Positions 1 through 29,489 of a stretch of 29,489 nt of DNA are shown in pieces. The first letter of the stretch is position 1; the number at the start of each line of letters is the position of its first letter. The notes under the pieces were generated by a model. It was given only the letters and a program-made list of their open reading frames with translations. It was not told the DNA's origin and searched no databases. A program made the translations under genes and the position numbers. The DNA comes from a virus. The stretch spans positions 1 to 29,489 of IMG/VR virus record IMGVR_UViG_3300043775_000270. One strand, 5' to 3'.

Positions 1-365
1 CATTTTTATTTAGACAAAAAGGATATTCTTTAATACAAATAGGAAAAGAACTAAACTTAAACCACGCTACAATAATACACCATTTGAAAATATACCCAAT
101 GATTAAACACTACAATCCAAGAGTAGAAGAATTAGAAAACTTAATCAATGGAGTTAAACCCGATTTAGTATTAGAATCATTACAATTTAAAATACAAATG
201 AGGGACATAGAAATAAAAGAACTGAAACAAAAAATAGAACAACTACAAACAAATAAAAACATTATGCGTTTAGCTGCACTATTAGAACACGAAGACGTAC
301 AAGAAAAGTTTCAAGCATTTTTAAACATTAACGAAAAAGCAAGATATTATAAAAAATATGAGTAA
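1..365 (+). CDS. DnaA domain-IV-like helix-turn-helix protein, 3' part (5' part at 29420-29489)
   Basis: The reading frame is open from the left edge (first whole codon at 3) to TAA at 363-365, so the gene starts outside the linear window. A TTG at 84 could serve as a start but would cut off the best domain. Residues encoded from about 9 to 90 read RQKGYSLIQIGKELNLNHAT followed by IIHHLK. This is the pattern of the DnaA C-terminal DNA-binding helix-turn-helix, where a similar loop contacts the DnaA box. The rest (about 75-115 in the joined protein) is Lys/Glu/Gln-rich and probably coiled coil. Joined to the partial frame at the right edge it gives one 144-aa protein with ATG at 29420. It lacks the AAA+ ATPase of true DnaA, so a DNA-binding role in replication or transcription is inferred. 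It overlaps the next small gene by 8 nt. Confidence 0.75.
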   Translation, partial: FLFRQKGYSLIQIGKELNLNHATIIHHLKIYPMIKHYNPRVEELENLINGVKPDLVLESLQFKIQMRDIEIKELKQKIEQLQTNKNIMRLAALLEHEDVQEKFQAFLNINEKARYYKKYE

Positions 366-1045: not shown

Positions 1046-1339
1046 ATGGAAGATAGAAGAAAAAATAATGGTGGTCATAAATCTGCAGGACGTAAACCTA
1101 AAGTAGAAGAACAAAAAGTAAATACATTATTTGTAAATGCTTTGAAACAATTATACAATACAGAAGTAGACGATGAAGCTAAAATTACTTTTGTTAAAGA
1201 TACTTTGTTAAGTTCGCAACGTGGACAGTTATTTGTAGCCGAGCATATATTTGGCAAACCAAAAGAAACAATCGAAACAACGCATAACATTAACGACTTC
1301 GATATAAAAGATATATTCAAAATTGATAAGTCTAAATAA
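1046..1339 (+). CDS. terS: terminase small subunit-like protein
   Basis: This 97-aa protein sits directly upstream of, and overlaps by 17 nt, the large terminase gene, the usual terS position. It has a basic N-terminus with GRKPK at 15-19, a helical middle, and HIFGKPKETIE at 67-77. A 'GKPKxxI' signature before a Thr/Asn-rich end is typical of small terminase subunits I know from Bacteroidota phages. Its role would be to recognise the packaging site and load the large subunit. ATG 1046 follows an A/T-rich leader (985-1045) without a convincing promoter. Position carries much of the call; the sequence alone is short and divergent. Confidence 0.7.
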   Translation: MEDRRKNNGGHKSAGRKPKVEEQKVNTLFVNALKQLYNTEVDDEAKITFVKDTLLSSQRGQLFVAEHIFGKPKETIETTHNINDFDIKDIFKIDKSK

Positions 1340-2528
1340 CAAATATAATTTATTAGGTTCCGATAGTAGATACTTTGTAATTACAGGTGGAAGGGGAAGC
1401 GGTAAATCCTATTCCCTTAACTCCTTTTTATTATTGCTTACTTACGAAGTAGGACACGTTATATTATTTACACGTTATACTTTAACTTCTGCAAACGTTT
1501 CTATTATTCCTGAATTTATAGACAAGATAGAATCAGCTGATTTAAGCAATGATTTTTATATTACTAAAGACGAAATCATTAATTTAAAAACAGGTTCTAA
1601 AATATTGTTTAAAGGTATTAAAACAAGCAGCGGAACTCAAACTGCAAACTTGAAATCATTAGCCGGTGTTACAACTTGGGTATTAGATGAAGCAGAAGAA
1701 CTAACAGATGAAGAAACATTTGAAAAGATAGACTTTAGTATAAGAACAAAAGGAATACAAAACAGAGTTATATTGGTTTTGAATCCTGCAACAAAAGAAC
1801 ACTTTATATATAAGAAATTCTTTGAAGATAAAGGAATACAATCAGGGAGCAATTTAATAAACGGAGACACTACATATATTCATACAACGTATTTAGATAA
1901 TATAGAAAACCTTTCTGAATCTTTTATTAACCAAATAGAAAACATTAAGAATAGAAGACCTGAAAAATATAAGCATCAAATATTAGGTGGTTGGTTGGAT
2001 AAAGCAGAAGGAGTTATATTTAATAATTGGTCAATAGGAAAATACGAGCAGGTAGGTAAAAGTATCTTTGGTCAAGATTTTGGTTTTAGTAATGACCCAA
2101 CTACGTTAATAGAATGCAATATAGACGCTTCTAACAAACGAATATATATTAATGAATGTTTCTCTTTACAAGCACTAACAACGTCGCAGATATACAACTT
2201 AAATAGGCAATACGTTAACGATGCTTTAATAGTTGCTGATAGTGCAGAGCCAAGATTAATAAGTGAGTTAGCTAATTTAGGTTTAAACATAGTTCCTACA
2301 ATTAAAGGGCAAGGCAGCGTTACATACGGAATCAGTTTACTACAAGACTACGATTTAATAGTAACACCTGAATCAATTAACTTAATTAAAGAATTGAATA
2401 ACTATTGTTGGTTGGAAAAGAAATCAAATACACCAATAGACAAACACAACCACTTGATAGATGCTTTACGTTATGCAGTAAGCTACCAATTAGAAAACCC
2501 TCACAAAGGAAACTATTATATTTATTAA
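1323..2528 (+). CDS. terL: terminase large subunit (packaging ATPase and nuclease)
   Basis: The 401-aa product has the full two-domain layout. Walker A is GGRGSGKS at 22-29 and Walker B with catalytic Glu is WVLDEAEE at 119-126. The motif LVLNPAT at 151-157 fits the coupling region. The RNase-H-like nuclease acidic residues lie in QDFGF (D252), ADSAEP (D306) and HNHLIDALRY (D380). It resembles the Terminase_3/PBSX type. It cuts concatemeric DNA and powers its entry through the portal. The start is a TTG at 1323; upstream in this frame there is a stop at 1305-1307 and only ATA between, so TTG is the only reasonable start. It overlaps terS by 17 nt and its TAA overlaps the next ATG (TAATG). Confidence 0.93.
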   Translation: MISLNNKYNLLGSDSRYFVITGGRGSGKSYSLNSFLLLLTYEVGHVILFTRYTLTSANVSIIPEFIDKIESADLSNDFYITKDEIINLKTGSKILFKGIKTSSGTQTANLKSLAGVTTWVLDEAEELTDEETFEKIDFSIRTKGIQNRVILVLNPATKEHFIYKKFFEDKGIQSGSNLINGDTTYIHTTYLDNIENLSESFINQIENIKNRRPEKYKHQILGGWLDKAEGVIFNNWSIGKYEQVGKSIFGQDFGFSNDPTTLIECNIDASNKRIYINECFSLQALTTSQIYNLNRQYVNDALIVADSAEPRLISELANLGLNIVPTIKGQGSVTYGISLLQDYDLIVTPESINLIKELNNYCWLEKKSNTPIDKHNHLIDALRYAVSYQLENPHKGNYYIY

Positions 2529-8501: not shown

Positions 8502-8637
8502 ACTAATATTAGAAATGCTACCCTTGTTAAAAGGACAAGATAGCGAAGCGATTGCAATAGCAAAAGGAAAATACAAGATGCCCGAAAACTTTAAAGAATT
8601 AAAACAAACAATAAAATGGCAATTAAGAAAACAATAG
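8494..8637 (+). CDS. hypothetical protein, 47 aa, bridging tail-tip and tape-measure genes
   Basis: ATG 8494 lies 8 nt inside the end of the tail-tip gene and TAG 8635-8637 lies 22 nt inside the tape-measure gene, so it exactly spans the gap. The product MLKLILEMLPLLKGQDSEAI... is amphipathic, basic at the C-terminus (TIKWQLRKQ), with no recognised domain. The good fit to both neighbours suggests a translated coupling peptide or small tail factor; it could also be a spacer frame. Confidence 0.5.
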   Translation: MLKLILEMLPLLKGQDSEAIAIAKGKYKMPENFKELKQTIKWQLRKQ

Positions 8638-10661
8638 AAATTGATGTAAATGCATCTGACGCTGAAAAAGACGTAAAAAAATTAACGAGCCAATTTGAAG
8701 ATTTAGGCAAAGCTGCTTCCAAGTCTATTAATAACATTGAGAAAGCTACAGAAGATACTGAAAAATCTACCAAGTCATTAGCAGATGGCTTTAAAGGAGT
8801 AGGTTTAGCTATTAAAGCTATGGGTATTGGTTTGATCATTGGTGCATTAAGTACTTTAAAAGAAGTATTTATGGGCAATCAAAAGGTTGCTGATACTTTT
8901 TCAGTTGTTATGGGTACTGTTGCAAATATATTTAGTCAGGTTACAAATATTGTAGTTTCAGTTATTGAAAAGGTAGGTAATGCTACAAATGGTTTTGAAG
9001 GTTTAAAAAAGACAATAGGCGGTTTATTAACTTTAGGTTTGACACCTTTAAAATTAGCGTTCTACGGAATTAAATTAACTATTGATGAAGTTCGTTTAGC
9101 TTGGGAAGAATCTTTATTTGGTGATAAAGACCCGAAAACAATTAAGAAACTTACCGAACGCATAAACGAAACTAAAGGTAGTTTAAAAGAAGTTGGAACT
9201 GATGCTATCAAAGCAGGTAAACAAGTTGCTAATAATATTGGTAAAGCAGTTGGCGAAGTAGGTGCGGTTATTGAAGGTAGCGTTGCAGGTATTTCTAAAA
9301 TATCAGTAGAAGGAGCAGTAGCACAAGCCAAAGCAAATGTTCAACTACAAAACACTGCAAAATTAGCTGAAGCAGAACAGGCACGTTTAGTTGAAATTTA
9401 TGACAGACAAGCTGAAAAATTAAGAAAAGTCAGAGATAACGAATTTAACACAATAGAAGAAAGGCAAAAAGCTAACAATGATTTGTTGAAAGTTTTAGAT
9501 AAACAAGAAACTGCAATGTTGGCTCAAGCAAATGCTCAAGTAGCTGCTGCTAAATCTACCTATCAACAAAACAAAAGCATTGAAAATCAAGCTGCAGTTA
9601 CAAATGCATTAGCAAACGCAGAAGGAGTACTTTCGCAAGTTCAAGGTTTACGTTCAGAACAAGATTCAAATTTAAATTCTTTAGCAAAAGAAGCAATAGA
9701 GTTAACAAAAAGCCAACAAAATGTTAAAACTGAATTAGCAATTAATGAAAAGAAATTTAATGCGGAAAGAATTAAAGATGAAGAACAAAAATTATTAGCT
9801 ACAAAACAAGCTTTTCTTGATGAGTTAACTGCTGCTAAAAACAAATTAAAAGATGATAGAGAATTATACAAAGAAGGCACACAAGCAAGAGCAGATGCTG
9901 AAAGTGAGTTCTTATTAAAACAACAAGAAATAAATCAACAAATAAAAACTTCAGAAGATTCACTTGCTGAATATAGAAGAAATAAAGCAATAGAAAACCA
10001 ACAACTATTAATTGACAATGAAACGTTAAGTTTTGAAACAAGAAGAAATGCTTTATTAGAACAAGAACGTTTATTATTAGAAGACAAAAATTTATCTGAA
10101 GAACAACGCAACACTATTGAACAACAATATTCTAAAGCACGAGTTGAAATAGGTAGATTAGAGTTTGAACAAAAAATGGCACAAGCAAACGAAACTGCAA
10201 ACGTTTTAGGTAACCTTGCTAATTTAGTTGGTAAACAAACTGCAGCAGGTAAAGCGTTAGGTATTGCAACTGCATTAATCAATACTTACGTTGGAGTTTC
10301 TGAAGCATTAAAACAAAAATCTACTTTACCATCTCCTTACGATTACGTTGCAAAAGCAGTAAACGTTGCAGCTATTTTAGCTACAGGTTTTAAATCGGTT
10401 AAAGCAATTACTGCCGTTAAAGTTCCGGGCGGTGGTGGTGGTGGCGGTGGTAGCGCCCCTTCAATGTCTGCTGCCGGTGGTGGTGCTGCAGGTGGTGGTG
10501 CAGCTGCTCCTCAATTTAACGTAGTAGGCAATAGCGGAGTTAATCAAATTGCACAAACGTTAGGCGCTCAACAACCCGTTCAAGCCTATGTAGTTGCTAA
10601 TAACGTAACAACTCAACAGGCGTTAGATAGAAACATCGTAAGAAACGCAAGTATTGGATAA
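8616..10661 (+). CDS. tail tape measure protein, 681 aa
   Basis: The layout is typical of a tape measure. There is an Ala/Lys/Asp-rich helical N-terminus and hydrophobic segments at about 61-80 (GVGLAIKAMGIGLIIGALST) and 95-120. A long Gln/Glu/Lys/Ala-rich coiled coil runs from about 230 to 540 (LRKVRDNEFNTIEERQKAN and similar). Another hydrophobic stretch follows at about 560-600, then a Gly/Ala-rich flexible tract from 605 (eight consecutive Gly). It sets tail length and probably leaves through the tail tip at infection. Using the general relation of about 0.15 nm per residue, a tail near 100 nm is expected, which fits a siphovirus. No peptidase domain is visible. Unusually, it lies downstream of the tail-tip genes rather than upstream. 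Confidence 0.88.
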   Translation: MAIKKTIEIDVNASDAEKDVKKLTSQFEDLGKAASKSINNIEKATEDTEKSTKSLADGFKGVGLAIKAMGIGLIIGALSTLKEVFMGNQKVADTFSVVMGTVANIFSQVTNIVVSVIEKVGNATNGFEGLKKTIGGLLTLGLTPLKLAFYGIKLTIDEVRLAWEESLFGDKDPKTIKKLTERINETKGSLKEVGTDAIKAGKQVANNIGKAVGEVGAVIEGSVAGISKISVEGAVAQAKANVQLQNTAKLAEAEQARLVEIYDRQAEKLRKVRDNEFNTIEERQKANNDLLKVLDKQETAMLAQANAQVAAAKSTYQQNKSIENQAAVTNALANAEGVLSQVQGLRSEQDSNLNSLAKEAIELTKSQQNVKTELAINEKKFNAERIKDEEQKLLATKQAFLDELTAAKNKLKDDRELYKEGTQARADAESEFLLKQQEINQQIKTSEDSLAEYRRNKAIENQQLLIDNETLSFETRRNALLEQERLLLEDKNLSEEQRNTIEQQYSKARVEIGRLEFEQKMAQANETANVLGNLANLVGKQTAAGKALGIATALINTYVGVSEALKQKSTLPSPYDYVAKAVNVAAILATGFKSVKAITAVKVPGGGGGGGGSAPSMSAAGGGAAGGGAAAPQFNVVGNSGVNQIAQTLGAQQPVQAYVVANNVTTQQALDRNIVRNASIG

Positions 10662-10702: not shown

Positions 10703-11296
10703 ATGAATCTAATAGAATTAATTATAGACGACAAAGAAGAAATGCAAGGTGTAGAAGCTATTAGCGTAGTTGAATCACCTGCTATTGAATCCGATTTTGT
10801 AGCGTTAAAGTCTGAAGAAATTAAACTTGCTGAAATAAGCAAAGAGAAACGTATTTTAATGGGTGCGGTTTTGATTCCTGAAAAGCCAATTTACAGACGT
10901 AATGGCGAAGATGAATACTATATATATTTTTCAAAAGATACTGTCGTAAAAGCGTCTCAGTTGTTTTTAAAGAATGGCAATCAAGGCAATTCAACATTAG
11001 AGCATTCTAAAGTTATTGAAGGTTTAACAGTTGTAGAATCTTGGATAGTTGAAGATTTAACTAAAGATAAAAGTGCGTTGTATAATTTAAACGTTCCGCT
11101 TGGTACTTGGATGGCAAGTATAAAAGTAGACAATGACGAAATTTGGAACGATTACGTTAAAACAGGCAAGGTAAAAGGTTTTAGTTTAGAAGGACATTTT
11201 GCCGATCAATTAGAAAAGAAAAAAGAATTAAGCAAAGTACTTAATGAAGAAGAAGAATTAATTGAAAAAATTAAACAAATTTTAAATAACGTTTAA
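10703..11296 (+). CDS. XkdF-like prohead protease
   Basis: This 197-aa protein begins MNLIELIIDDKEEMQGVEAI and has VVESPAIESDF near residue 22, MGAVLIPEKPIYRRNG at 53-68 and YIYFSKDTV at 73-81. Two candidate catalytic residues follow: H101 in STLEHS and S161 in GFSLEG. This His...Ser arrangement and the wording 'GxxLIPxKxIYRR' match the XkdF-type serine protease that matures HK97-fold capsids. WIVEDLTKDKSALY and GTWMASIKVDNDEIW are also family hallmarks. It would process the scaffold and capsid protein encoded 1.3-2.9 kb downstream. The acidic C-terminus (about 170-197) is helical. Its stop overlaps the next ATG. Confidence 0.85.
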   Translation: MNLIELIIDDKEEMQGVEAISVVESPAIESDFVALKSEEIKLAEISKEKRILMGAVLIPEKPIYRRNGEDEYYIYFSKDTVVKASQLFLKNGNQGNSTLEHSKVIEGLTVVESWIVEDLTKDKSALYNLNVPLGTWMASIKVDNDEIWNDYVKTGKVKGFSLEGHFADQLEKKKELSKVLNEEEELIEKIKQILNNV

Positions 11297-13159: not shown

Positions 13160-14092
13160 ATGGCGACTACAACCTCTATTACAACTACTTATGCAGGTCA
13201 ATTTGCAGGGAAATATATTTCTGCTGCATTATTGTCTGCTTCTACTATCGAAAACGGTGGTATTGAAGTAAAACCAAACATTGCTTACAAAGAAGTTATC
13301 AAAAGATTAGCAACTAACGATTTAGTTAAAGATGCTACTTGTGATTTCGATGCAACTTCTACAGTTACTTTAACTGAAAGAATCATTACTCCTGAAGAAT
13401 TTCAAATCAATTTACAACTTTGTAAAAAAGATTTCAAATCCGATTGGGAAAGTATTGCTATGGGATATAGTGCATTTTCAGATATGCCTCCTTCTTTTCA
13501 AGATTTCTTATTAGCACACGTTGCTGCTAAAGCTGCTCAAAACAATGAAATTTCAATTTGGAGAGGTGCTAACGCAACTGCAGGTCAATTTGATGGATTT
13601 GTTACTTTAGCTACTGCTGATTCAACTGTTATCGACGTAGTTGGTACTACTGTTACTGCTTCTAACGTTATTGCTGAATTAGGAAAAGTTGTTGATGCAA
13701 TTCCTGCTACACTTTACGGACAAGAAGATTTATATATCTATGTATCTCAAAACGTTGCTCGTGCTTACGTTCGTGCTTTAGGTGGTTTTGCTGCTTCAGG
13801 TTTAGGTGCTAATGGTACTAACACAATGGGTACACAATGGTTTAACAACGGAAGTTTAACTTTTGACGGAGTTAAAATATTTGTTGCAAACGGATTAGCT
13901 AACAACTATATGATGGCTGCAGAAAAATCTAACTTATATTTCGGAACAGGTTTATTATCTGACCATAACGAAGTGAAAGTGATTGATATGGCTGACATCG
14001 ACGGATCTCAGAATGTAAGAATCGTAATGAGATTTACTGCAGGTGTTCAATACGGAATTGGTTCTGATATCGTTCTTTACACTCCTGCTTAA
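13160..14092 (+). CDS. major capsid protein (HK97-fold type), 310 aa
   Basis: The product begins MATTTSITTTYAGQFAGKYI and includes DLVKDATCDFDATSTVTLTE, PEEFQINLQLCKKDF, GQEDLYIYVSQNVARAYVRA and, near the C-terminus, MRFTAGVQYGIGSDIVLY. Length, the mixed alpha/beta content with few charged runs, and the ending 'xxRFxxGxQxGxxxDIVxY' fit phage major capsid proteins I know from flavobacterial phages. It follows protease and scaffold genes and is directly followed by a strong terminator. It carries more C-ending codons than its neighbours (ATC, TTC, GAC), as expected of a highly expressed gene. It is most likely cut or arranged by the XkdF-like protease. Confidence 0.9.
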   Translation: MATTTSITTTYAGQFAGKYISAALLSASTIENGGIEVKPNIAYKEVIKRLATNDLVKDATCDFDATSTVTLTERIITPEEFQINLQLCKKDFKSDWESIAMGYSAFSDMPPSFQDFLLAHVAAKAAQNNEISIWRGANATAGQFDGFVTLATADSTVIDVVGTTVTASNVIAELGKVVDAIPATLYGQEDLYIYVSQNVARAYVRALGGFAASGLGANGTNTMGTQWFNNGSLTFDGVKIFVANGLANNYMMAAEKSNLYFGTGLLSDHNEVKVIDMADIDGSQNVRIVMRFTAGVQYGIGSDIVLYTPA

Positions 14093-14749: not shown

Positions 14750-14791
14750 GTTTTAACAATTCAACACATTATTTATTTTTAAATAAAAAGA

Positions 14792-15121
14792 ATGATAATT
14801 TTAAAAGAACAAGCAACGGCACAAAATCTTTACGCTACGATTGATGGTTTAGAAGCTGATGCTATTGTTTTAAGAGATGAAGAAGCAAATACAGAAGAAA
14901 CTATCGGTTGCGTATTTTCGATTGATAAATATTACGCAGTTACTAATTTGGTATTTCCGATAATAGAAAACAAATTCTACAATTTGACTATTTTAAATGG
15001 TACTGATGTAGTTTACAGAGACAAAATATTTTGCACAAACCAAATAATTGAAGAATTTAGTATAAACAAAAACGTTTACACGCAAAGAACTTCAGATAAT
15101 GAATTTATAATTTATGGATAA
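14792..15121 (+). CDS. head-tail region protein, 109 aa, function unknown
   Basis: The product is beta-rich (starts MIILKEQATAQNLYATIDGL; then YYAVTNLVFPIIENKFYNLT and ILNGTDVVYRDKIFCTNQ). I recall the phrase 'YxLxVLNGxxxIYKDKIFCTNQ' from short proteins near portal genes in flavobacterial phages. It overlaps the portal start by 8 nt, indicating coupling. A structural role in the neck or on the virion surface is a guess from position. The leader upstream (14770-14788) resembles the repeated A/T motif. Confidence 0.6.
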   Translation: MIILKEQATAQNLYATIDGLEADAIVLRDEEANTEETIGCVFSIDKYYAVTNLVFPIIENKFYNLTILNGTDVVYRDKIFCTNQIIEEFSINKNVYTQRTSDNEFIIYG

Positions 15122-16916
15122 CGTACACATTTTAAGTTTAAGCGCTTATAATTCTCCAACTATAACTGAATCTAAAAACAAAGAGTTCGTTGAATACGGC
15201 GTAGATAACAACTATTTTCAATACCTTATTGATAGATTTTTGTATTCAAATACAAATCACGCTATTATAACAGGTGTTGCTAATATGATTTATGGAAAAG
15301 GAATCGATGCTACTGATTCAAATCGTAAGCCAAACGAGTATGCACAAATGATGTCTATTATAAAAAAGGATTGTTTGCGTAAAGTTGCTTTAGAACGTAA
15401 ATTACTTGGAATGGCTGCAATGCAGGTTATTTACTTGAATGGTAAAGTTAAATCAGTTGAGCATTTTCCAATGCACACGTTAAGAGCAGAAAAATGTAAC
15501 GATAAAGGTGAAATTGAAGCTTGGTTTTATCATCACGATTGGTCAAATTACAGAAAAGGTGACGTATTAAAACGCATACCTGCTTTTAAATTTGGTAATG
15601 GAAAAGAAGTTGAATTATACGTTATTAAACCATACGTTTCAGGTTATCATTATTATACTCCAATAGATTATTCGGGTGCTTTACCATACGCAACTTTAGA
15701 GCAAGAAATTTCCGATTACTTGATCAACGATGTAATGAATGGTTTTAGTGGTACAAAAGTAATTAACTTTAACAATAACATACCACCTGAAGAAAAACGT
15801 CAAGAAGTAGCAAACGAAGTTAAACGTAAATTAACAGGTTCAAAAGGCGACAAAGTAATTGTATCTTTTAACGCAAGTGCAGATAACAAAACTACAGTTG
15901 ACGATATTCCATTAAACGAAGCACCGGCACATTATCAATATTTATCTACCGAATGTTTTGAAAAATTAATCGTTGGGCATCGTGTTACAAGTCCAATGCT
16001 TTTAGGAATTAGAGATACAGGCGGTGGTTTAGGTAACAACGCTGATGAGATAGAAACTGCTACACGTTTATTTGACAATATTGTAATTAGACCTTATCAA
16101 TTAGAAATCATTGAAGCGTTAGACGAAATACTATCAGTAAACGGGATCGCTTTAAACCTATATTTTAAGACAATACAACCACTTGATTTTATAGACGTAA
16201 ATACATTAAACGCAGAAACGAACGAAGAAGAAACAGGTGTTAAAATGGCTTCTCACGATGTATGTTGTTCAAGTGATGAAGATTTAGCAGATATGTTAAT
16301 TTCTAAAGGTGAAGAATTAAGCGACGAATGGGTTTTAATTGATGAAACAGAAGTTGATTATGATAATGAAGAAGAATTAGATTTAGAAATTGAAGCACTA
16401 AATAACAAAAATAAAAAAAAAGAAAGTTTACTATCTAAAGTTTGGCACTTTGTAAGTACAGGAACTGCTAAACCAAAACAAAAATCGGAAGACGATAAAG
16501 AAATTGATGGTGTTAATTTTATCACTCGTTATGTTTATAGTGGAAATGCATCAGGCGAACGTGCTTTTTGCAATAAAATGTTAAGTGCTGATAAAGTATA
16601 TCGTAGAGAAGATATTGAAGCAATGGATAGCATAGCAGTTAATGCAGGATTTGGAAAAAATGGTGCTGCAACTTATTCTATATGGTTTTATAAAGGCGGC
16701 CCTCGATGTCACCACGCTTGGTTGCGTAGAACTTATGCAAGTTTTGATGTTAAAATTGACCCTACAAATCCAAATGCAAAGCCATTAAGTATTGCAAAAG
16801 CTGAAAAATATGGTTATAGAATTAGAAACGATAAAGAAGTTTCTATGAAACCAAACGATATGCCTTACAGAGGATATACAAAAGAATATTGGGATAAAAT
16901 GGGTTTTAAAAATTAA
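15114..16916 (+). CDS. portal protein with extra C-terminal domain, 600 aa
   Basis: Residues 1-365 form the portal body: VEYGVDNNYFQYLIDRFLYS, ITGVANMIYGKGID, LLGMAAMQVIYLNG, the stem region PAHYQYLSTECFEKLIVGHR, then VTSPMLLGIRDTGGGLGNNA and IRPYQLEIIEALDEIL. The 'SPxLLGI...GLGNNADE' segment is typical of portals. Residues about 365-465 are an acidic then Lys-rich flexible linker. Residues 466-600 are a separate domain with FITRYVYSGNASGERAFCNK, NAGFGKNGAATYSIWFYKGG and GPRCHHAW (529-536), which looks capable of binding a metal. I recall this module attached to Bacteroidota phage portals and sometimes described as MuF-like. The portal forms the 12-mer DNA entry ring. It lies well downstream of the capsid gene, unlike the usual order. 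Confidence 0.85.
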   Translation: MDNVHILSLSAYNSPTITESKNKEFVEYGVDNNYFQYLIDRFLYSNTNHAIITGVANMIYGKGIDATDSNRKPNEYAQMMSIIKKDCLRKVALERKLLGMAAMQVIYLNGKVKSVEHFPMHTLRAEKCNDKGEIEAWFYHHDWSNYRKGDVLKRIPAFKFGNGKEVELYVIKPYVSGYHYYTPIDYSGALPYATLEQEISDYLINDVMNGFSGTKVINFNNNIPPEEKRQEVANEVKRKLTGSKGDKVIVSFNASADNKTTVDDIPLNEAPAHYQYLSTECFEKLIVGHRVTSPMLLGIRDTGGGLGNNADEIETATRLFDNIVIRPYQLEIIEALDEILSVNGIALNLYFKTIQPLDFIDVNTLNAETNEEETGVKMASHDVCCSSDEDLADMLISKGEELSDEWVLIDETEVDYDNEEELDLEIEALNNKNKKKESLLSKVWHFVSTGTAKPKQKSEDDKEIDGVNFITRYVYSGNASGERAFCNKMLSADKVYRREDIEAMDSIAVNAGFGKNGAATYSIWFYKGGPRCHHAWLRRTYASFDVKIDPTNPNAKPLSIAKAEKYGYRIRNDKEVSMKPNDMPYRGYTKEYWDKMGFKN

Positions 16917-16919
16917 GAT

Positions 16920-17529: not shown

Positions 17530-17755
17530 TATAGATTGGGGACAAGGTGTAAACAACAATGATATTTATTGGGGGCAAGGTGCTATCACCAATGATATTA
17601 GTTGGGGTAGTGTTTACTCTGTAAGTTGGTCGGGTGAAACTGAAATATTAGGAAACGAAATTGACGCAGTAATAGATTTCATAGCAAGGGTTGCTGCTGA
17701 TAGCGGTACGTTTGAGGCGAAACAATGTTTAATTAATATAATAGAAAATATATGA
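17519..17755 (+). CDS. WGQG-repeat tail/fibre-associated protein, 78 aa
   Basis: The N-terminus consists of three imperfect 11-residue repeats: NIDWGQGVNNN, DIYWGQGAITN, DISWGSVYSVS. Then come SWSGETEI and a C-terminal module FIARVAADSGTFEAKQCL that matches residues 23-40 of the large tail-tip protein. The repeats suggest a regular beta structure with stacked Trp. The small protein lies directly upstream of the tail-fibre gene and overlaps it by 4 nt (ATGA), so it may be a fibre adaptor or cap. I recall such 'NxIxWGQGxxNN' proteins in Bacteroidota phages without function. Confidence 0.75.
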   Translation: MANNIDWGQGVNNNDIYWGQGAITNDISWGSVYSVSWSGETEILGNEIDAVIDFIARVAADSGTFEAKQCLINIIENI

Positions 17756-19362
17756 GTTTATTTGATAGTGCTTCACTTTGCGTGACGCCGAACGCGTATA
17801 AGGAAGACAAACTTTATTCGATAAAACCTACTGATGGTAGTGGTGATTTGGTAGTAACAAGAGCAACAACTGCAACGAGAGTTAATAGTGCGGGATTGGT
17901 TGAAGTAGTACCTTATAATTTACTACAATATAGTCAAGATTTAACAAATGCAGCTTGGAGTTTAATCGGTACAATTACAAGAACTTCAAACTATGGGACT
18001 GCTCCTGATGGAACTCAAACGAGTACCCGTATACAATGGGGTGGTGGTGCTAACTTTGAATTATATCAATATACAGGCAAATCTGCTGATGTTCTTGGCT
18101 CTATTTATATTAAAGGTACTTTGGGACAAATTGTAAGGTTTAATAACTCAAATGTAACATTAACAGGAAGTTGGCAAGAGGTATCAAATTCTTTACTTGT
18201 TGATGGTTCTAATACTTATATGTCAATTCGTGGAATTGTAGGAACTACAACTGCACTTGATTTTCAAGTTTGGGGAGCTCAAGCTGTACAAGGCACTTCA
18301 GCAAAAGAATACTTCCCTACAACTGATAGATTAAATGTACCTCGTATTGATTACACTAATGGAAGTTGTCCGAGTATATTGGTAGAGCCACAGAGAACAA
18401 ATTTATTGACTTATTCAAATACTTTTACTGATGCAAGTTGGAATTTAGAAGATGCAACTATATCTGCAAATGTTGCTATTTCACCTGACGGAACACAAAA
18501 CGCAAGTAAATTAGTTTCAAATGCAAACAATACAGACCACACTATTTATAAAACTGTTTTAACTTTAGTAGATAGAACTTTTAGTTGTTATGTAAAAGCT
18601 GATGGTTACAATTATGTATTTTTAGGAAATAATAATGGTTTAGCAAGTCAAGGAGTTTTCTTTAATTTAACAAATGGAACTATATCTCAAAATACTTCAA
18701 CATTTACAGCATCAATTCAAAGTGCGGGCAATGGTTGGTATAGATGCACAATTAGTCAAGCTTTATGGACAATTCCTTATGCAATGATTTGTTTATCAAA
18801 TAATGGAACAAGCTTTACTTTTGCAGGTAATGGAACAAGTGGTGTATTAATATATGGAGCACAAAATGAAGCAGGAAGTTACGCTACTTCATACATTCCT
18901 ACAGTAGCAAGTTCAGTAACTCGTAATGCTGATGTTATTTCTAAAACAGGAATAAGTAGTTTAATTGGTCAAACTGAGGGAACTATGTTTTTTGATGGAT
19001 ATTTTAACGATGTTCAAAGCGGAACTGTATTTTTAGATTTAGAAGGTACATTTCCAAAAGTAAATTTTCAAATAGGCAGTGGAATATTATACTTTTATTC
19101 TCAGGGTGAATTTAGTTTTTCAACAGCTATTTCGTTAAATACAAGATATAAAATTGCCGGAGCATATAAAAATAACGATGTAGCTTTTTATGTTAATGGT
19201 GTTCAAATTGGAGTAGATAATTCAGCTACTATAACTGCAAAAACAAATTTATATATAAATTCTGAAGCGGGTTCTTATGTTGCTGATTTAGATATTAATT
19301 CAATAGCACTTTGGAAAACAAGATTAGACAATACAACTTTAGCAACTTTAACAACTATCTAA
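17752..19362 (+). CDS. tail fibre/receptor-binding protein with carbohydrate-binding-like modules, 536 aa
   Basis: The N-terminus (MSLFDSASLCVTPNAYKEDK, then TRATTATRVNSAGLVEVV) is an attachment segment common in Bacteroidota phage fibres. Two homologous lectin-like modules follow. The first runs about 56-190: NLLQYSQDLTNAAW, APDGTQTSTR, VWGAQAVQGT, EYFPT. The second runs about 217-383: NLLTYSNTFTDASW, SPDGTQNASK, IYGAQNEAGS, SYIPT. Residues about 400-536 look like a concanavalin A/LamG-type sandwich (GTMFFDGYFNDVQSGTVFLD, NTRYKIAGAYKNNDVAFYVN, GVQIGVDNSA). Together this indicates binding of host surface glycans. No depolymerase residues stand out. The stop overlaps the next ATG. Confidence 0.8.
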   Translation: MSLFDSASLCVTPNAYKEDKLYSIKPTDGSGDLVVTRATTATRVNSAGLVEVVPYNLLQYSQDLTNAAWSLIGTITRTSNYGTAPDGTQTSTRIQWGGGANFELYQYTGKSADVLGSIYIKGTLGQIVRFNNSNVTLTGSWQEVSNSLLVDGSNTYMSIRGIVGTTTALDFQVWGAQAVQGTSAKEYFPTTDRLNVPRIDYTNGSCPSILVEPQRTNLLTYSNTFTDASWNLEDATISANVAISPDGTQNASKLVSNANNTDHTIYKTVLTLVDRTFSCYVKADGYNYVFLGNNNGLASQGVFFNLTNGTISQNTSTFTASIQSAGNGWYRCTISQALWTIPYAMICLSNNGTSFTFAGNGTSGVLIYGAQNEAGSYATSYIPTVASSVTRNADVISKTGISSLIGQTEGTMFFDGYFNDVQSGTVFLDLEGTFPKVNFQIGSGILYFYSQGEFSFSTAISLNTRYKIAGAYKNNDVAFYVNGVQIGVDNSATITAKTNLYINSEAGSYVADLDINSIALWKTRLDNTTLATLTTI

Positions 19363-19718: not shown

Positions 19719-19911
19719 TAAAGAAAAAATAGATTTATTCCTTAACAAGTGGGTAAGTCGTAAATTAACAGTTTTTGTTGTAGCATCTGCAGGTTTATTC
19801 TCAGGTGTTATAACTTCTACTGATTGGGTTATTATTGGAACTTCTTACATTACGATCGAAGGAGTTACAAATATTGTTGAACGTTTAATGAAAGCTAAAA
19901 ATGTCAATTAA
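19711..19911 (+). CDS. holin candidate 1 (two membrane segments), 66 aa
   Basis: The product MSSKEKIDLFLNKWVSRKLT has a charged N-terminus, then hydrophobic segments at about 19-36 (VFVVASAGLFSGVITS) and 38-55 (WVIIGTSYITIEGVTNIV), and a basic tail (ERLMKAKNVN). Two close membrane helices with a basic C-terminus just upstream of an amidase gene fit a small holin. I recall 'FLNKWxSRKLxVFVxAxxxL...DWxIIxxxYIxIEGVxNIVExL' as a recurrent protein in this position. It overlaps the next small membrane gene by 11 nt. Confidence 0.65.
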   Translation: MSSKEKIDLFLNKWVSRKLTVFVVASAGLFSGVITSTDWVIIGTSYITIEGVTNIVERLMKAKNVN

Positions 19912-20068
19912 CGATTTGAAACTATACGGACTTAATTCACTTGCGATGGCAATTAGCTTTTCTAATGTAGAATCTACGCTAAAAATATTCTTATTGTGTG
20001 TGTCTATAATTTATACAATAATGAAAACTATTGAATTAATGAAAAAGAAAAATGATGAGAGAGATTAA
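19901..20068 (+). CDS. holin candidate 2/small membrane protein, 55 aa
   Basis: ATG 19901 overlaps holin candidate 1 and the frame ends at TAA 20066-20068, 17 nt inside the amidase gene. The product MSINDLKLYGLNSLAMAISF ends in SNVESTLKIFLLCVSIIYTIM and a very basic tail (ELMKKKNDERD). One strong membrane segment lies at about 27-42. The wording 'INDLKxYGxNxxxLxISFSNIExxLKIxLLxxSIxYT' is one I know from holin-like genes next to amidases in flavobacterial phages. It may act with the 66-aa protein as holin or antiholin. Confidence 0.65.
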   Translation: MSINDLKLYGLNSLAMAISFSNVESTLKIFLLCVSIIYTIMKTIELMKKKNDERD

Positions 20069-20462
20069 ATACATCGTTATTCATTGCAGTGCTTCCAAGC
20101 CAACGACAACTAAAGAAGCTATTTTAAATTATTGGAAAAATACTTTAAAATGGAAAACTGTAGGTTATCATCGTTTAATTGATGCTAATGGTGTTATTCA
20201 CGAATTAGCAAAATACGAACAAGTAACAAATGGTGTTAAAGGTTACAACTCTGAATCAATACATTTTAGTTACATTGGTGGAATAGATGAATCAGGTAGA
20301 CCAAAAGACACACGTACAATTAAACAAAAAGAAAGTTTATTGTATTTAGTTAAACAAGCTAAAAAACAATTTCCTAACGCTATTGTTCAAGGTCATCGTG
20401 ACTTTGGTGTAAATAAAGCGTGTCCAAGTTTTGATGCTAAAAGCGAATATAAAGACATTTAA
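20052..20462 (+). CDS. N-acetylmuramoyl-L-alanine amidase (endolysin, Amidase_2 type), 136 aa
   Basis: The product starts MMREIKYIVIHCSASKP; two successive ATG codons (20052, 20055) are both usable. Zinc ligands can be placed as H11 (VIHCSA), H115 (GHRDF) and C124 (KACPSFDA), the T7-lysozyme-like His-His-Cys set. Y39-H40 in VGYHRLI and K122 in NKACP are likely catalytic or substrate residues. It is the length of a single catalytic domain, with no wall-binding part and no signal peptide, so it needs a holin for release. It cuts the amide bond between MurNAc and L-Ala. It lies between holin candidates and the spanin, forming a lysis cassette. Confidence 0.92.
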   Translation: MMREIKYIVIHCSASKPTTTKEAILNYWKNTLKWKTVGYHRLIDANGVIHELAKYEQVTNGVKGYNSESIHFSYIGGIDESGRPKDTRTIKQKESLLYLVKQAKKQFPNAIVQGHRDFGVNKACPSFDAKSEYKDI

Positions 20463-21052: not shown

Positions 21053-21439
21053 ATGAAAGTCAAACGTTCAACTTTAGTAAAGAATTTAGATACTGTATTT
21101 TCGCAGTACATACGTTTGCGTTATGCTAAAAATGAAATATCTGAATGTTATACTTGTGGTAAACAAGACCATTACAAAAAGCAACAAGCAGGACATTTCG
21201 CATCACGTAGGCATTATTCAACACGTTGGAACGAATATAACGTACAAGTTCAATGTTATGGATGCAATATCGGAAATCAAGGTTTGCAGTTTGAGTTTGG
21301 CAAAAGATTAAATAAAGAATTTGGCAATGATTTTGCAGAAAAGTTATTAATTGAATCTAAAAAGACAGTTAAATTATCTGATAATGATTTGCAAGATATG
21401 ATTATTTACTACAAAGATAAATTAAAAGAATTTCTATAA
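21053..21439 (+). CDS. ninG: NinG-like recombination protein, 128 aa
   Basis: A basic N-terminus (MKVKRSTLVKNLDTVFSQYI) is followed by a zinc-binding pair C32-C35 (CYTCGK), AGHFASRRHYSTRWNEYNV, and a second pair C68-C71 (CYGCN), then GLQFEFGKRLNKEFG. This is the NinG/Rap pattern: an HNH-like fold with 'GHF' and two CxxC knuckles. In lambda relatives NinG/Rap acts as a structure-specific endonuclease in recombination with Red. Here it would work with the ERF annealer and RecE-like exonuclease. It is alone between P2 and terminator T4. An overlapping frame at 21123-21311 is a shadow. Confidence 0.85.
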   Translation: MKVKRSTLVKNLDTVFSQYIRLRYAKNEISECYTCGKQDHYKKQQAGHFASRRHYSTRWNEYNVQVQCYGCNIGNQGLQFEFGKRLNKEFGNDFAEKLLIESKKTVKLSDNDLQDMIIYYKDKLKEFL

Positions 21440-21482: not shown

Positions 21483-21511
21483 GAGTAGTTTAGCGACTAC
21501 TCTTTTTTTTT
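21483..21511 (+). terminator. intrinsic terminator T4 after ninG-like gene
   Basis: GAGTAGT (21483-21489) pairs perfectly with ACTACTC (21496-21502) around a 6-nt loop, followed by nine T (21503-21511). Confidence 0.93.
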
Positions 21512-21562
21512 GTTAATGAAATGTTAATGTTTATTTTTGTATTAAAATTCTTTATATATTTG
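21511..21562 (+). promoter_or_regulatory. promoter P3 with tandem TGTTAA boxes, DNA-metabolism operon
   Basis: The -7 box TATATTTG is at 21555-21562 and a TTG at 21537-21539 is 15 nt upstream. TGTTAA occurs at 21511-21516 and 21522-21527, 11 nt apart, i.e. 44 and 33 nt upstream of the -7 box. The first gene starts 24 nt downstream of the box. Confidence 0.75.
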
Positions 21563-21586
21563 CTTCATAATTAAAAACAATTACAA

Positions 21587-21757
21587 ATGAAAGATTTAAT
21601 CGATTATCAAAGATTCCAAGTTGAAGCATTACAAAAACGTATATGCGAACTTGAAACAAAATTAAACGACGTTAAAGCACATATATTTGAATTATGTGAC
21701 GAAGATTGTCCACAAGAGTACAAAACAATTATTAAACAAAAAACTTACGAATTATGA
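21587..21757 (+). CDS. small coiled-coil protein, 56 aa
   Basis: This is the first gene after P3. ATG 21587; its TGA overlaps the ERF start (ATGA at 21754). The product begins MKDLIDYQRFQVEALQKRIC and is a Leu/Glu/Lys helix with heptad spacing (ELETKLNDVKAHIFELC), then DEDCPQEYKTIIKQ. Three Cys are present. No family is recognised; it is likely a small helical accessory or regulatory protein of the recombination operon. Confidence 0.7.
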   Translation: MKDLIDYQRFQVEALQKRICELETKLNDVKAHIFELCDEDCPQEYKTIIKQKTYEL

Positions 21758-22329
21758 AAAATTTAACATTAAACGAAAAGCTATCTAAAATTCAAGTAGA
21801 ATTTAAAGCTAACAAATCAAAGTTTAATTCTTTTGGAAAATATAACTTCCGTTCTGCTGAAGATATATTAGAAGCGTTAAAACCTTACAATGAAAAGTAT
21901 GGTGTATCTTTTACTATTAACGAAAGTTTAATTTGTGAAAACCCGCCTGTATTGAAATCAACTGCAAGTATTATTGACAATAACGGAATTAACGTTATAA
22001 AAGCTATTGCAATAGTAGGAGTAGATTTGCAACAAAAAGGAATGCAAGTACCTCAACAATATGGTTCTGCATCTTCTTATGGTAAAAAATACGCATTGGG
22101 TAACTTACTTTTAATTGACGACACGCAAGATCCTGATGCAACTAATACACACGGACGAGATAACGCAAAAAGTGCGACAACTGAAGATGACCAAAAATGG
22201 TTAAATGTTAACACACCTGAATTTACAAAAGCTATTGAATATTTAAAAAGCGGTGGAACTATTGAAGTTATCGAAAAAAAGTATAAATTAGCAGCCAAAA
22301 CAAAACAAGAACTTTTAAAAGTTAAATAA
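21754..22329 (+). CDS. erf: ERF-family single-strand annealing recombinase, 191 aa
   Basis: The product begins MKNLTLNEKLSKIQVEFKAN and continues with NSFGKYNFRSAEDILEALKP, then STASIIDNNG, QQYGSASSYGKKYALGNLLL and IDDTQDPDATN (about 122-132). 'KYxxRSxEDIxxAxKP' and 'GxAxSYxxKYALxxLxxIDDxxDxDA' are the defining stretches of the ERF superfamily, which anneals complementary single strands in phage recombination. The C-terminal 60 residues are a variable helical tail. Its partners here are the SSB-like protein, NinG and the RecE-like exonuclease. Confidence 0.92.
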   Translation: MKNLTLNEKLSKIQVEFKANKSKFNSFGKYNFRSAEDILEALKPYNEKYGVSFTINESLICENPPVLKSTASIIDNNGINVIKAIAIVGVDLQQKGMQVPQQYGSASSYGKKYALGNLLLIDDTQDPDATNTHGRDNAKSATTEDDQKWLNVNTPEFTKAIEYLKSGGTIEVIEKKYKLAAKTKQELLKVK

Positions 22330-22348: not shown

Positions 22349-23149
22349 ATGTTTCAAACATTAAAAGCACCAATGACAAATAGCTCAAGTGCAATCGAAG
22401 TAAATAAAGTTTACAAAACAAATGATTTATTAATTTTTAAACCTATTGACGGAAATCGTGTTCCAAATTTACAACACATAAAAAGATTATCTGATTCAAT
22501 TAGAATTTATGGAATGAAATGCAATCCTATTTTAGTAAATGAAAAAATGGAAGTCATAGATGGTCAGCATAGATTAATGGCTGCTAAAGAATCTAAATCA
22601 TTTGTTTATTACATAATTGTAGATGGTTATTCATTAAATGAAGTACATACTTTAAATCTTAATCAAAAGAATTGGGCAAAAAAAGATTTTATGGAAGGAT
22701 ATGCAAATATGGGTATAGAGTCTTATATAAAACTTTCTAAATTTATTGAAAAAAATGATGATTTTGGATTTAGTGATTGTGTTTCTATGTGCAGTAATAG
22801 GTCAGGTGGTCAAACAAAAGATAAGTCGTATATAATAAAACCTGAATTAAGTAAACAGGAATTGTTTGAAGATGGAACTTGGAGAGGAAAAGATTTTGAA
22901 TTAGCACAAGATTGGGCAAATAAAATAAGAATGGTACAAACATATTATTCAGGATATAATAGAAGTACATTTGTAGGTACAATGATAGGACTTCTGCAAA
23001 ACATTAATTTTGATTTTAATGAGTTTATGCATAAATTAAGATTACAACCTACTGCTTTAGTTGATTGTGCTAATCGTGAACAATATAGAACTTTGATAGA
23101 GGATATCTATAATTGGAGAAGTAGACAAAAAATTAATTTAAGATACTAA
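22349..23149 (+). CDS. ParB/sulfiredoxin-fold nuclease-like protein, 266 aa
   Basis: Residues about 35-95 have RVPNLQHIKRLSDSIRIYG, NPILVNEKMEVIDGQHRLMA and a following helix (AAKESKSF), the ParB N-terminal/Srx fold. DGQHR at 71-75 corresponds to the nucleotide-binding box. The remainder (about 110-266) is helical with TLNLNQKNWAKKDFMEGYAN and a Cys/Ser-rich segment; it resembles phage ParB-like proteins rather than plasmid partition proteins. No ParA is present, so partition is unlikely. A regulatory, nicking or CTP-dependent DNA-binding role in replication is possible. The second in-frame Met (residue 9) is an alternative start. Confidence 0.8.
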   Translation: MFQTLKAPMTNSSSAIEVNKVYKTNDLLIFKPIDGNRVPNLQHIKRLSDSIRIYGMKCNPILVNEKMEVIDGQHRLMAAKESKSFVYYIIVDGYSLNEVHTLNLNQKNWAKKDFMEGYANMGIESYIKLSKFIEKNDDFGFSDCVSMCSNRSGGQTKDKSYIIKPELSKQELFEDGTWRGKDFELAQDWANKIRMVQTYYSGYNRSTFVGTMIGLLQNINFDFNEFMHKLRLQPTALVDCANREQYRTLIEDIYNWRSRQKINLRY

Positions 23150-23550: not shown

Positions 23551-24402
23551 ATGACAGAACAAGAAACGATCAATAGAATGATGATGCAAGTGCTTGAAGA
23601 AGATTGCTACATTAACCCTGAACAAGAAATAGAATATCCAATACCTGCTTTGTCTTTTGGTGAAAAGGAATACGAAACAAAAGATGGTTATAAAACATAT
23701 CCAATTCCTATTGGAACTTATGGTAACTTTAGTTTTATTCAAGCACCACCTAAATCAAAGAAAACGTTCTTTATATCGCTTTTAAGCGCAGTTTATATGA
23801 AAAACGAATTACAGGGATTTGGTGGTAAATTAAGAGGTAACAGGCAAGATAAACACGTTATACATTTTGACACCGAGCAAGGAAATTTTCACGCTTCAAT
23901 GGTTTTTAAAAGACCATTACAAATGACAGGTTTAAAAGATGATAAATACCATACTTACGCATTAAGACAATTAGGATTTAAAGAAAGAGTTTTATTTATT
24001 GAATATATACTTTATGATAAATTAGAAGGTCAAGATATTGGTTTGGTTATTATTGATGGTATTGCAGATTTATGTTCCGATGTTAATAGCATAGAACAAG
24101 CAAGTGAAGTAGCACAACATTTAATGCGTTGGTCAAAAGAATTGAATTGTCACATAGTAACAGTTATTCACTCAAACTTTGGAACTGATAAACCAACAGG
24201 GCATTTAGGATCGTTCTTGGAAAAGAAAGCAGAAACACAAATACAATTAGAACTAAACACAGTAAATAAAGAACTTGTTAAAGTAAGTTGCAAAAGAAGT
24301 AGAAACGCAAGTTTTGAAGATTTTAATTTTAAAGTTAACAATTTTGGTTTACCACAAGTAGAAGGTGATTTATATGATATACTAAAAGATATAAAAATAT
24401 GA
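23551..24402 (+). CDS. RepA/AAA_25-like RecA-fold ATPase (helicase type), 283 aa
   Basis: The core is a RecA-fold NTPase. A P-loop-position segment SFIQAPPKSKKTFFISLLSA (61-80) is followed by VIHFDTEQGNFHA (103-115), Walker B LVIIDGIADL (165-174) and sensor-like VTVIHSNFG (203-211). LGSFLEKKAETQIQLEL matches the 'GSxxLxxKxxxxxxL' stretch of RepA-like hexameric helicases. The P-loop is degenerate: A65PPKSKKT72 instead of GxxxxGKT/S. Known Bacteroidota relatives, as I recall, also have 'GKAKSRKS' forms, so it may still bind ATP. It is the only helicase-like gene seen and could unwind phage DNA at the origin. Its TGA overlaps the methyltransferase start. Confidence 0.75.
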   Translation: MTEQETINRMMMQVLEEDCYINPEQEIEYPIPALSFGEKEYETKDGYKTYPIPIGTYGNFSFIQAPPKSKKTFFISLLSAVYMKNELQGFGGKLRGNRQDKHVIHFDTEQGNFHASMVFKRPLQMTGLKDDKYHTYALRQLGFKERVLFIEYILYDKLEGQDIGLVIIDGIADLCSDVNSIEQASEVAQHLMRWSKELNCHIVTVIHSNFGTDKPTGHLGSFLEKKAETQIQLELNTVNKELVKVSCKRSRNASFEDFNFKVNNFGLPQVEGDLYDILKDIKI

Positions 24403-25265
24403 TAGTTTTAAGTTTATTTAATGGAATGAATACAGGCAGACAAGCATTGGAGAATGTCGGTATTAAAGTAGATAAATATTATTCAAGCGAAATTAAACCT
24501 TACGCTATTGAATTAACTCAATATCATTTTCCTGATACTATACAAGTTGGTGATGTTACCAAATGGAAAGAATGGGACATTGATTGGAAAAGTATAGATT
24601 TAGTTTTAAGTGGTTCACCTTGTCAAGATTTATCTGCAGCAGGTAAACGTGCAGGAATAAATGGCAGTAAAAGTAGTTTGTTTTTTACTTTTATTGAAAT
24701 ATTAGAACACATAAAATCTTTAAATCCAAATGTATTATTCCTTCAGGAAAACGTAGGTAGTGCTTCTAAATTGGATGTTGGTATTATGTCGAGAGCTTTA
24801 GGTGTTTATCCTGTTAGAATTAATTCGAGTTTAGTTACTGCTCAATTAAGAGATAGATATTATTGGAGTAATATAAGAACAAAAGCTGATGGAATGTTTG
24901 GCGATATTATAACTGATATACCATTACCAAAAGATAAAGGAATACTTTTAAAAAACATTATTACAAGTGGTGATGTAGATAGAAATAAAAGCAGATGTTT
25001 AATAGAAAGATATATTGGTGCAATTCCTAAAAATCACGATGCTATACAAAGGCACTTAAATGAAAGAGTTGAATTTGGTTCATATACTGTAGTTAAAGAA
25101 GGTGATTTATTAAGAGCATTTAATAAAACTGAAATGTGCAGATTGCAGGGTTTTCCTGATAATTATTGTGATATACTTACAACAGAGAAATCAGGTAGTT
25201 TACTTGGCGATGGATGGACTTTACCTATAATAGAGCATATTTTTAGCTTTATAAATAAATGTTAA
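24399..25265 (+). CDS. C5-cytosine DNA methyltransferase, 288 aa
   Basis: All key motifs are present. Motif I is LSLFNGMNTG (4-13), motif IV is GSPCQDLS (72-79) with catalytic C75, and motif VI is QENVGS (116-121). Motif VIII is QLRDRYYW (149-156), motif IX is RLQGFPDNY (248-256), and motif X is LLGDGWTLP (268-276). It transfers a methyl group from S-adenosylmethionine to cytosine C5. The N-terminal wording (LSLFxGxxTG...VDxYxxSE) resembles DNMT3-type enzymes more than Dcm/HhaI. The target-recognition region between VIII and IX is short. No cognate endonuclease is adjacent; protecting phage DNA from host restriction is the simplest role. It is coupled to the ATPase by ATGA. Confidence 0.93.
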   Translation: MIVLSLFNGMNTGRQALENVGIKVDKYYSSEIKPYAIELTQYHFPDTIQVGDVTKWKEWDIDWKSIDLVLSGSPCQDLSAAGKRAGINGSKSSLFFTFIEILEHIKSLNPNVLFLQENVGSASKLDVGIMSRALGVYPVRINSSLVTAQLRDRYYWSNIRTKADGMFGDIITDIPLPKDKGILLKNIITSGDVDRNKSRCLIERYIGAIPKNHDAIQRHLNERVEFGSYTVVKEGDLLRAFNKTEMCRLQGFPDNYCDILTTEKSGSLLGDGWTLPIIEHIFSFINKC

Positions 25266-27927: not shown

Positions 27928-27949
27928 ATCTTTTAATGCTACGCATTTA

Positions 27950-28000
27950 TGTTAAAGTTTTGTTAAAATGTTAATAAGTAAAAAATAAGTTATATATTTG
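27950..28000 (+). promoter_or_regulatory. promoter P4 with three TGTTAA boxes
   Basis: The -7 box TATATTTG is at 27993-28000. TGTTAA occurs at 27950-27955, 27961-27966 and 27969-27974; the first two are 11 nt apart and lie 43 and 32 nt upstream of the box. ATGTTAAAGTTTTGTTAAA (19 nt) is identical to the sequence at P1. No good -33 TTG is present, so an activator may be needed. Confidence 0.7.
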
Positions 28001-28419: not shown

Positions 28420-29184
28420 ATGATAACAACATTTGATAACAAACAATGGACTAAAGAAGAAATCCTTTCTAATATGTACGATGATAGTTTCTACTATGGT
28501 TACTTGGGGCAAAACGCATTAAGTAGTTCAAGTATTAAAACATTAATATCTTCACCTAAAACGTATTACTTTACAACTAAATACGGAAGTGGTGAAACAC
28601 AAGCGTTACGTGATGGTAGACTATTTCACACAATGATATTAGAACCTGAAAAGTTAGAAGATATTATATTTGTAGACGCTGCAACAAAAGCAAGTAAAGA
28701 ATACAAACTTGCAAAAGAAACAGGAAAAGAAGTTTACACTAAAAACGAAAAGAAAGCAGCAGAACGTTTATGCGATGCGTTATTAAGAAATGAAGCAGTA
28801 AAAGAATACTTAACAAAAGCAGAATACGAAGTACCACAAATAGCAATGATTGATGGAATACCAATAAGAGCAAAAGCAGATATATTAAAAGGCAATACTA
28901 TTATTGATTTAAAAACCACAACAGGTATTAAAGATTTTAGATATTCAGCAGATAAATATTCTTACGATTTACAAGCGTGGTTATATCGTGAAATGTTTGG
29001 AGTAGAAGATTTTGTATTTATAGCTATCGATAAAGGCAGTTTAGATATTGCTATATTTGAATGTAGTGACGAGTTCTACGCAAAAGGTAAAGAAAAGTTT
29101 GAACAAGGAGTTAGTAACTATAAACACTTTTTTCAAACAGAAGGAGTAGATTTAGACCAATATGTATTAAGAGGAGTATTGTAA
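28420..29184 (+). CDS. RecE-like/PDDEXK exonuclease (DUF3799 type), 254 aa
   Basis: The N-terminal region reads GQNALSSSSIKTLISSPKTY and ALRDGRLFHTMILEPEKLED with H70. The nuclease core follows: IRAKADILKGNTIIDLKTTT with D154, D163 and K165 (D-x8-DLK), then SYDLQAWLYREMFG with Q185 and Y189. This is the PD-(D/E)XK exonuclease pattern of RecE C-terminal/DUF3799 proteins, which resect duplex ends 5' to 3'. It would supply single strands for the ERF annealer (21754), although the two genes are about 6 kb apart in different transcription units. Length matches stand-alone phage members. Confidence 0.88.
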   Translation: MITTFDNKQWTKEEILSNMYDDSFYYGYLGQNALSSSSIKTLISSPKTYYFTTKYGSGETQALRDGRLFHTMILEPEKLEDIIFVDAATKASKEYKLAKETGKEVYTKNEKKAAERLCDALLRNEAVKEYLTKAEYEVPQIAMIDGIPIRAKADILKGNTIIDLKTTTGIKDFRYSADKYSYDLQAWLYREMFGVEDFVFIAIDKGSLDIAIFECSDEFYAKGKEKFEQGVSNYKHFFQTEGVDLDQYVLRGVL

Positions 29185-29195
29185 TGTAATTTAAA

Positions 29196-29423
29196 ATGGA
29201 ATTAACAAAAGATGAAGCATTTGCTATGACGCTATACGATATAAGTCAAGGCGAAACATTAGAAACAATGCGAATGGTTTTAACAGACTACGAAGAACGT
29301 GAAGAGTTTGAAGTTTGTGCAGGTATACATTTAGCAATAGAAGTATCTTCGTTTCTTACATTAACCGCAGTAGTACAAGAATTTAACCCAATAGAATTAG
29401 AATTAACATTTGATGAATTATGA
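29196..29423 (+). CDS. small acidic hypothetical protein, 75 aa
   Basis: The product MELTKDEAFAMTLYDISQGE is strongly acidic throughout (TDYEEREEFEVCAGIHLAIE, EFNPIELELTFDEL). Its TGA overlaps the next ATG (29420, ATGA). High negative charge at this size is seen in DNA-mimic or anti-restriction proteins, but here the evidence is composition only. It sits between the RecE-like exonuclease and the DnaA-like HTH gene. Confidence 0.6.
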   Translation: MELTKDEAFAMTLYDISQGETLETMRMVLTDYEEREEFEVCAGIHLAIEVSSFLTLTAVVQEFNPIELELTFDEL

Positions 29424-29489
29424 TAATAGAAAAAATAAAACAAGAATCAGGAATTGATGTAACAATAAAAAGCAGGAAACGTGAACAAG
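29420..29489 (+). CDS. DnaA domain-IV-like HTH protein, 5' part (continues at 1-365)
   Basis: ATG 29420 opens a frame that runs off the right edge: MIIEKIKQESGIDVTIKSRK followed by REQ and one base of the next codon. Adding bases 1-2 gives GCA (Ala), and the frame then continues without a stop through FLFRQKGYSLIQIGKEL and on to 365. The composite 144-aa protein has a short N-terminal helix, the basic KSRKREQ segment expected before the DnaA-type HTH, then the HTH and a coiled-coil tail. The seamless join is the evidence that both parts are one gene. Confidence 0.78.
   Translation, partial: MIIEKIKQESGIDVTIKSRKREQ

Follow-up and report, generated by a model that had tools for sequence, protein, structure and literature searches.

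The isolated phages closest to the genome described here, judged by the portal protein (35% identity over 97%), are the Nonlabens (Persicivirga) phages P12024S and P12024L of the genus Inhavirus. Their layout resembles that of our genome, with portal, tail, lysis, Erf, exonuclease, sigma-like and terminase genes, but they differ from it in their length of 35.7 kb and in having an annotated primase gene. These isolates are distant relatives only, and a megablast search with positions 10000-20000 found no DNA-level similarity in the phage collection. Since P12024S, the nearest isolate by portal, infects a marine flavobacterium, we tentatively regard the host as probably a member of the Bacteroidota. 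The phage group itself, taken as one of Bacteroidota, is of a freshwater type.

The stretch of DNA analyzed (29,489 bp, hereafter the window) coincides with a virus record from end to end, which leaves it without chromosomal context. The initial annotation had proposed that the two ends join in frame and that the window is a complete circular or permuted phage genome.

The gene divided between the two ends of the record

The frame that begins at ATG 29420 was open through 29489 with one base (G) left over; bases 1-2 (CA) fill this codon, and the frame continues from base 3 to a stop at 363-365. The literal join thus encodes an uninterrupted 144 residues plus a stop, just as had been described. 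Taken by itself, however, an in-frame join is weak evidence, and we rejected circularity inferred from the join alone: arbitrary joins of two same-strand genes are in frame one-third of the time, and random joins of window pieces with the same lengths as the two halves gave an open frame in 4.6% of cases. A check for terminal redundancy, which had been proposed along with the circle, found no terminal repeat by prefix and suffix comparison; the longest word common to the first and last 500 bp was 11 bp, and a direct terminal repeat of 20 bp or more, a sign of a complete circular or permuted genome in the CheckV sense, is lacking. Comparison with relatives was therefore needed. The elements at the two edges are as follows.

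29420..29489, + strand: 5' part of the split gene, residues 1-23 (MIIEKIKQESGIDVTIKSRKREQ) and the first base of the next codon; the same residues begin the intact gene in 35 relatives
29489..29489, no strand: gap at the right edge, with about 21 bp (7 codons, VEMKALA in close relatives) absent between 29489 and 1; seen in 35/35 relatives and as a 21-bp DNA offset
1..365, + strand: 3' part of the split gene, comprising the end of the first long DnaA-domain-IV-like helix, the recognition helix-turn-helix (QIGKELNLNHATIIHHLK), a long helical tail and the stop at 363-365; from the frame, the alignment and the helices predicted in relative L002
29196..29423, + strand: small gene directly upstream that overlaps the start of the split gene; no PHROG family; in some relatives replaced or followed by other small genes

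An IMG/VR scan with the joined protein, a search that the initial annotation had suggested, found 35 relatives, and in every one the gene was unbroken and carried seven extra codons exactly at the join. In the alignment of these relatives the proteins read RKREQ-VEMK[ATV]LAS-[FY]L (two have IEMKTLAS), and the literal join reads RKREQ-A-FL. The extra codons are flanked by sequences that match the right and left ends of the window: DNA of close relatives runs ...GAACAAG TAGAAATGAAAGCATTAGCAT CATTCTTATTT..., the right end of the window is GAACAAG, and its left end starts CATTTTTATTT, so that the 21 bp absent from the record correspond to about TAGAAATGAAAGCATTAGCAT. In DNA alignments the two window ends lie side by side and colinear in relatives, and those alignments that reach both edges have a constant 21-bp step (e.g., 1237/1259 in L003 and 5477/5499 in L004). 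The missing 21 bases are available only from relatives, which have 66-95% protein identity.

Because the seven residues are present at the join in every relative, the 144-residue product proposed earlier is not the real one; judged from the alignment, the true protein has 151 residues and the circle is about 29,510 bp, with about 21 bp absent from the record. The codon GCA at the join, which the initial annotation had read as genuine, is on the same comparison artificial, made up of pieces of two codons that read about GTA and TCA. A very improbable alternative is that the genome is an exact 29,489-bp circle and that the phage truly lacks these 21 bp and makes the 144-residue protein. In its favor, the two ends join in frame, a loss of 21 bp, being divisible by three, would not shift that frame, and an assembler might break at precisely this point if the deletion were polymorphic in the population. 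Against this, the seven residues occur in 35/35 relatives and belong to the domain's first long helix, the domain score is halved without them, and the opening of a contig at the very site of the deletion would require a coincidence; moreover, assembly of an exact circle normally yields a k-mer end repeat, which six relatives have and this record does not. We instead favor a gap that is most likely an assembly break rather than biology, for which a local strain variant or a coverage dip would be the simplest cause. Polymorphism at the gap edges was also considered as the cause of the break and is unproven; the first and last missing bases are invariant among the aligned relatives.

A circular map opened inside the gene

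Circular templates opened at random give contigs with odd, k-mer-like repeat lengths, and aligning such contigs from related viruses reveals permutation (CheckV, PMC8116208). Exact end repeats of this kind occur in six related records (G001, G009 and G019, 127 bp; G014, 121 bp; G017, 123 bp; G018, 87 bp). All six are circularly colinear with the window, and they are opened at different map positions, with the split gene internal in each. Three of the closed IMG/VR phages are closer to the window (the records behind L013/G001, L035/G009 and L139/G014): they cover 61-72% of it by DNA similarity in the same circular gene order and have an unbroken copy of the split gene at the same place as in the window, with the exonuclease gene on one side and the terminase genes on the other; some of their accessory genes differ. 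The net sizes of the closed relatives, these three included, are 30.6-33.9 kb versus about 29.5 kb for the window, and are described as bracketing its size class. Some relatives that lack exact end repeats seem to extend beyond one full turn of the map; 300 bp recur at 99% in G002 and about 600 bp at 86% in G004, the latter probably being two strains in one contig.

That the window might be only a piece of a larger phage or of a prophage, its in-frame join being coincidental, would suit a record without end repeats and a one-in-three chance of joining same-strand genes in frame. We consider it exceedingly improbable: both edges fall in one gene, 21 bp apart, in 35 relatives, the complete relatives hold the gene order of the window round the whole circle, and edges would come to lie within 21 bp of each other by chance on a 30-kb circle about one time in a thousand. 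The join goes beyond chance because the two halves form a single gene in all 35 relatives.

To test for fixed physical ends, we used the contig ends of relatives. The 76 that could be mapped to the window were scattered, with none at base 1 or 29489 and the nearest at 29464 and 80; this set was found partly via the split gene, which biases it against contigs ending inside that gene, and it also took in contigs retrieved by way of the exonuclease and terminase genes. The scatter indicates that contigs do not usually break at the edge point of the window and that no fixed physical end lies there. An extremely improbable reading is accordingly that the edges are the physical ends of virion DNA at a cos site, with a single-stranded overhang of about 21 nt lost in library preparation. 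In its favor, the absent stretch is short and has a single size by comparison with every relative, which is what the loss of an overhang would give, but fixed ends should recur and 0/76 contig ends fell at this point, which is also located within a conserved coding helix.

We put at about 0.93 the probability that the window holds almost the whole genome of an uncultivated tailed phage with a circular map, arbitrarily opened in a 151-residue DnaA-domain-IV-like gene, where about 21 bp are absent. From the earlier proposal of a complete circular or permuted genome, the neighboring ends, the essentially complete content and the circular or permuted map are retained (35/35 relatives with the ends adjacent across a 21-bp gap, and six closed records with 87-127-bp repeats opened at different positions, both in the CheckV sense), and the exact 29,489-bp circle is not. 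This is an ordinary situation among metagenomic phages. In-frame continuity between contig ends may seem to prove an exact circle, and yet the relatives reveal missing bases and a wrong protein; the record is usable as an essentially complete, permuted genome with one known small gap.

Gene content and packaging

Genes outside the split gene to which we could give a function or a probable function are listed below with their PHROG matches.

1046..1339, + strand: probable small terminase subunit, downstream of the junction; phrog_38011 (function unknown), 3.8e-9, and a position just before TerL
1323..2528, + strand: large terminase subunit (TerL), single copy; PHROG 2, 3.6e-47; nearest solved chains SPP1-type 2wbn and Sf6 gp2 4idh
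8616..10661, + strand: tail tape-measure protein; PHROG 9483, 2.1e-9
10703..11296, + strand: head maturation protease; PHROG 3017, 2.2e-16
13160..14092, + strand: probable major capsid protein; PHROG 11320 (unknown function), 1.7e-48, and PHROG 1623 (virion structural), 2e-7
15114..16916, + strand: portal protein; PHROG 33693, 7.8e-104; the match to the P12024S portal given above
17752..19362, + strand: tail protein; PHROG 5939, 4.9e-51
20052..20462, + strand: amidase endolysin; PHROG 822, 2e-46
21053..21439, + strand: NinG/Rap-like junction endonuclease; PHROG 5034, 8.6e-26
21754..22329, + strand: Erf-like single-strand annealing protein; PHROG 155, 5.5e-37
28420..29184, + strand: exonuclease VIII-like recombination nuclease, upstream of the junction; PHROG 412, 6e-38

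The statement that the hallmark modules occur once each held up for the structural, lysis, packaging and recombination genes, with single genes for the large terminase, portal, probable capsid, head protease, tape measure, tail protein, amidase, Erf-like, NinG-like and exonuclease VIII-like proteins. No integrase was found among the proteins scanned (some small ORFs were outside the scan), and no tRNA or Rfam family was found in the window.

Among solved chains TerL matched 2wbn (1.7e-12), which we take to be the SPP1 TerL nuclease, and 4idh (Sf6 gp2; 1.4e-9). The SPP1 and Sf6 TerL enzymes are headful packagers, so the resemblance suggests that headful packaging and permuted virion DNA are likely here too, the packaging mode being drawn solely from TerL similarity; the same resemblance argues against the cos ends considered above. 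Under the circular reading that we prefer, DNA would replicate to concatemers, for which Erf and exonuclease VIII-like recombination genes are present, and headful cutting of the concatemers would give permuted virion molecules; the split gene would then merely be where the record happened to be opened, and the gap would stem from an assembly break.

Several regions varied among relatives. The terminase region (about 1111-2379) had diverged alleles in the otherwise similar L003, L014, L022 and record G015 (388-aa TerL), and the comparison suggests that the packaging module may have been exchanged among relatives. A DNA cytosine methyltransferase gene (24399-25265; PHROG 116, 1.9e-44) was cleanly missing in several close relatives: in L011 and L036 window position 24396 adjoins 25257, L005 and L019 have other sequence in its place, and G014 has the gene. 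L011 and L036 also lack a ParB-like gene (22349-23149; PHROG 12305, 1.3e-30), with 22329 adjoining 23152. Two small genes at about 637-830 and 805-995 (window 637-995) were swapped in order in G001 and G015, the 637-830 gene still being 96-97% identical in DNA. The intergenic regions 2691-2758, 21509-21568 and 27949-27998 have common repeats such as ATGTTAAAGTTTTGTTAAA and terminate in TATATTTG, in resemblance to the Bacteroidota promoter (TTTG / TAnnTTTG); the motif count on the + strand of the window (6 vs 2.0) exceeds chance by little.

The DnaA-domain-IV-like product

The earlier description of the split gene product as a DnaA-domain-IV-like helix-turn-helix was supported by profile and fold matches in intact relatives, and the coiled coil described after it is probable. 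The Pfam model Bac_DnaA_C (PF08299) scored 15.1 bits against the literal join and 28.4, 29.6, 29.7 and 32.5 bits against four intact relatives (curated cut-off 31.5). It also matched 12 of the 12 members of a wider alignment (A1; best E 4.9e-12), and the profile of this alignment had as its best solved chain 1J1V, DnaA domain IV bound to its box (range 12-79, E 0.0042). The predicted structure of relative L002 was all helical and confident over residues 1-70 (pLDDT about 90-95), with the long helical tail after the helix-turn-helix domain, probably a coiled coil, modelled less confidently. By the fold test for domain IV, the top PDB match of the model was 3PVP, the M. tuberculosis DnaA DNA-binding domain (probability 1.00, TM 0.73 normalised to the target, rmsd 1.8, with a Foldseek E of 0.19). 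The missing residues 24-30 lie inside the predicted helix 21-36 of L002, the first helix of the domain. Once these seven residues are restored, the split gene is predicted by these models to encode a DnaA-domain-IV-like DNA-binding protein.

Searches with the split gene detected no relatives in the phage collection, P12024S and P12024L included, and gave only one weak match in genome_contigs (L159, a Ruminococcus MAG contig, 30% identity over 83 residues); no prophage form was seen in genome_contigs. Distant relatives (about 30% identity) occupy the same interval between the exonuclease and large terminase genes in G016, G017, G018 and G020. L178 (record G015) has, at about 3846-4450, small genes and the 3' part of the gene in a segment whose orientation is opposite to that of the flanking sequence, and the helix-turn-helix part is absent; this reflects either a chimeric assembly or a real inversion.

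DnaA-box-like sites were counted over the whole window and in records G001, G002, G009, G014, G017 and G019. Sites matching TTWTNCACA were below the dinucleotide expectation in the window and few in most relatives too, an effect to which codon usage may contribute. Given this scarcity, the target of the protein is likely a site other than the canonical DnaA box. The product would bind phage DNA through its helix-turn-helix and act, we infer, in replication initiation or in early/late regulation. A further idea, which we consider rather unlikely, is that a stand-alone DnaA-domain-IV phage family, kept between the recombination exonuclease and terminase genes throughout the group, marks the phage origin or packaging start via a site that is not the host DnaA box.

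Compared with the DnaA system, the phage has no canonical DnaA-box cluster in the window (1 site vs 7.35 expected), and L002 falls under the Pfam cut-off (28.4 vs 31.5). The 151-residue protein has no AAA+ ATPase domain of the full DnaA initiator, consisting of the helix-turn-helix domain and, in place of the ATPase, the helical tail only. Its resemblance to DnaA domain IV itself (PF08299; 1J1V, 3PVP) consists in the predicted fold, the profile match to 1J1V and a conserved basic R-K-R and NHAT-IIH motif.
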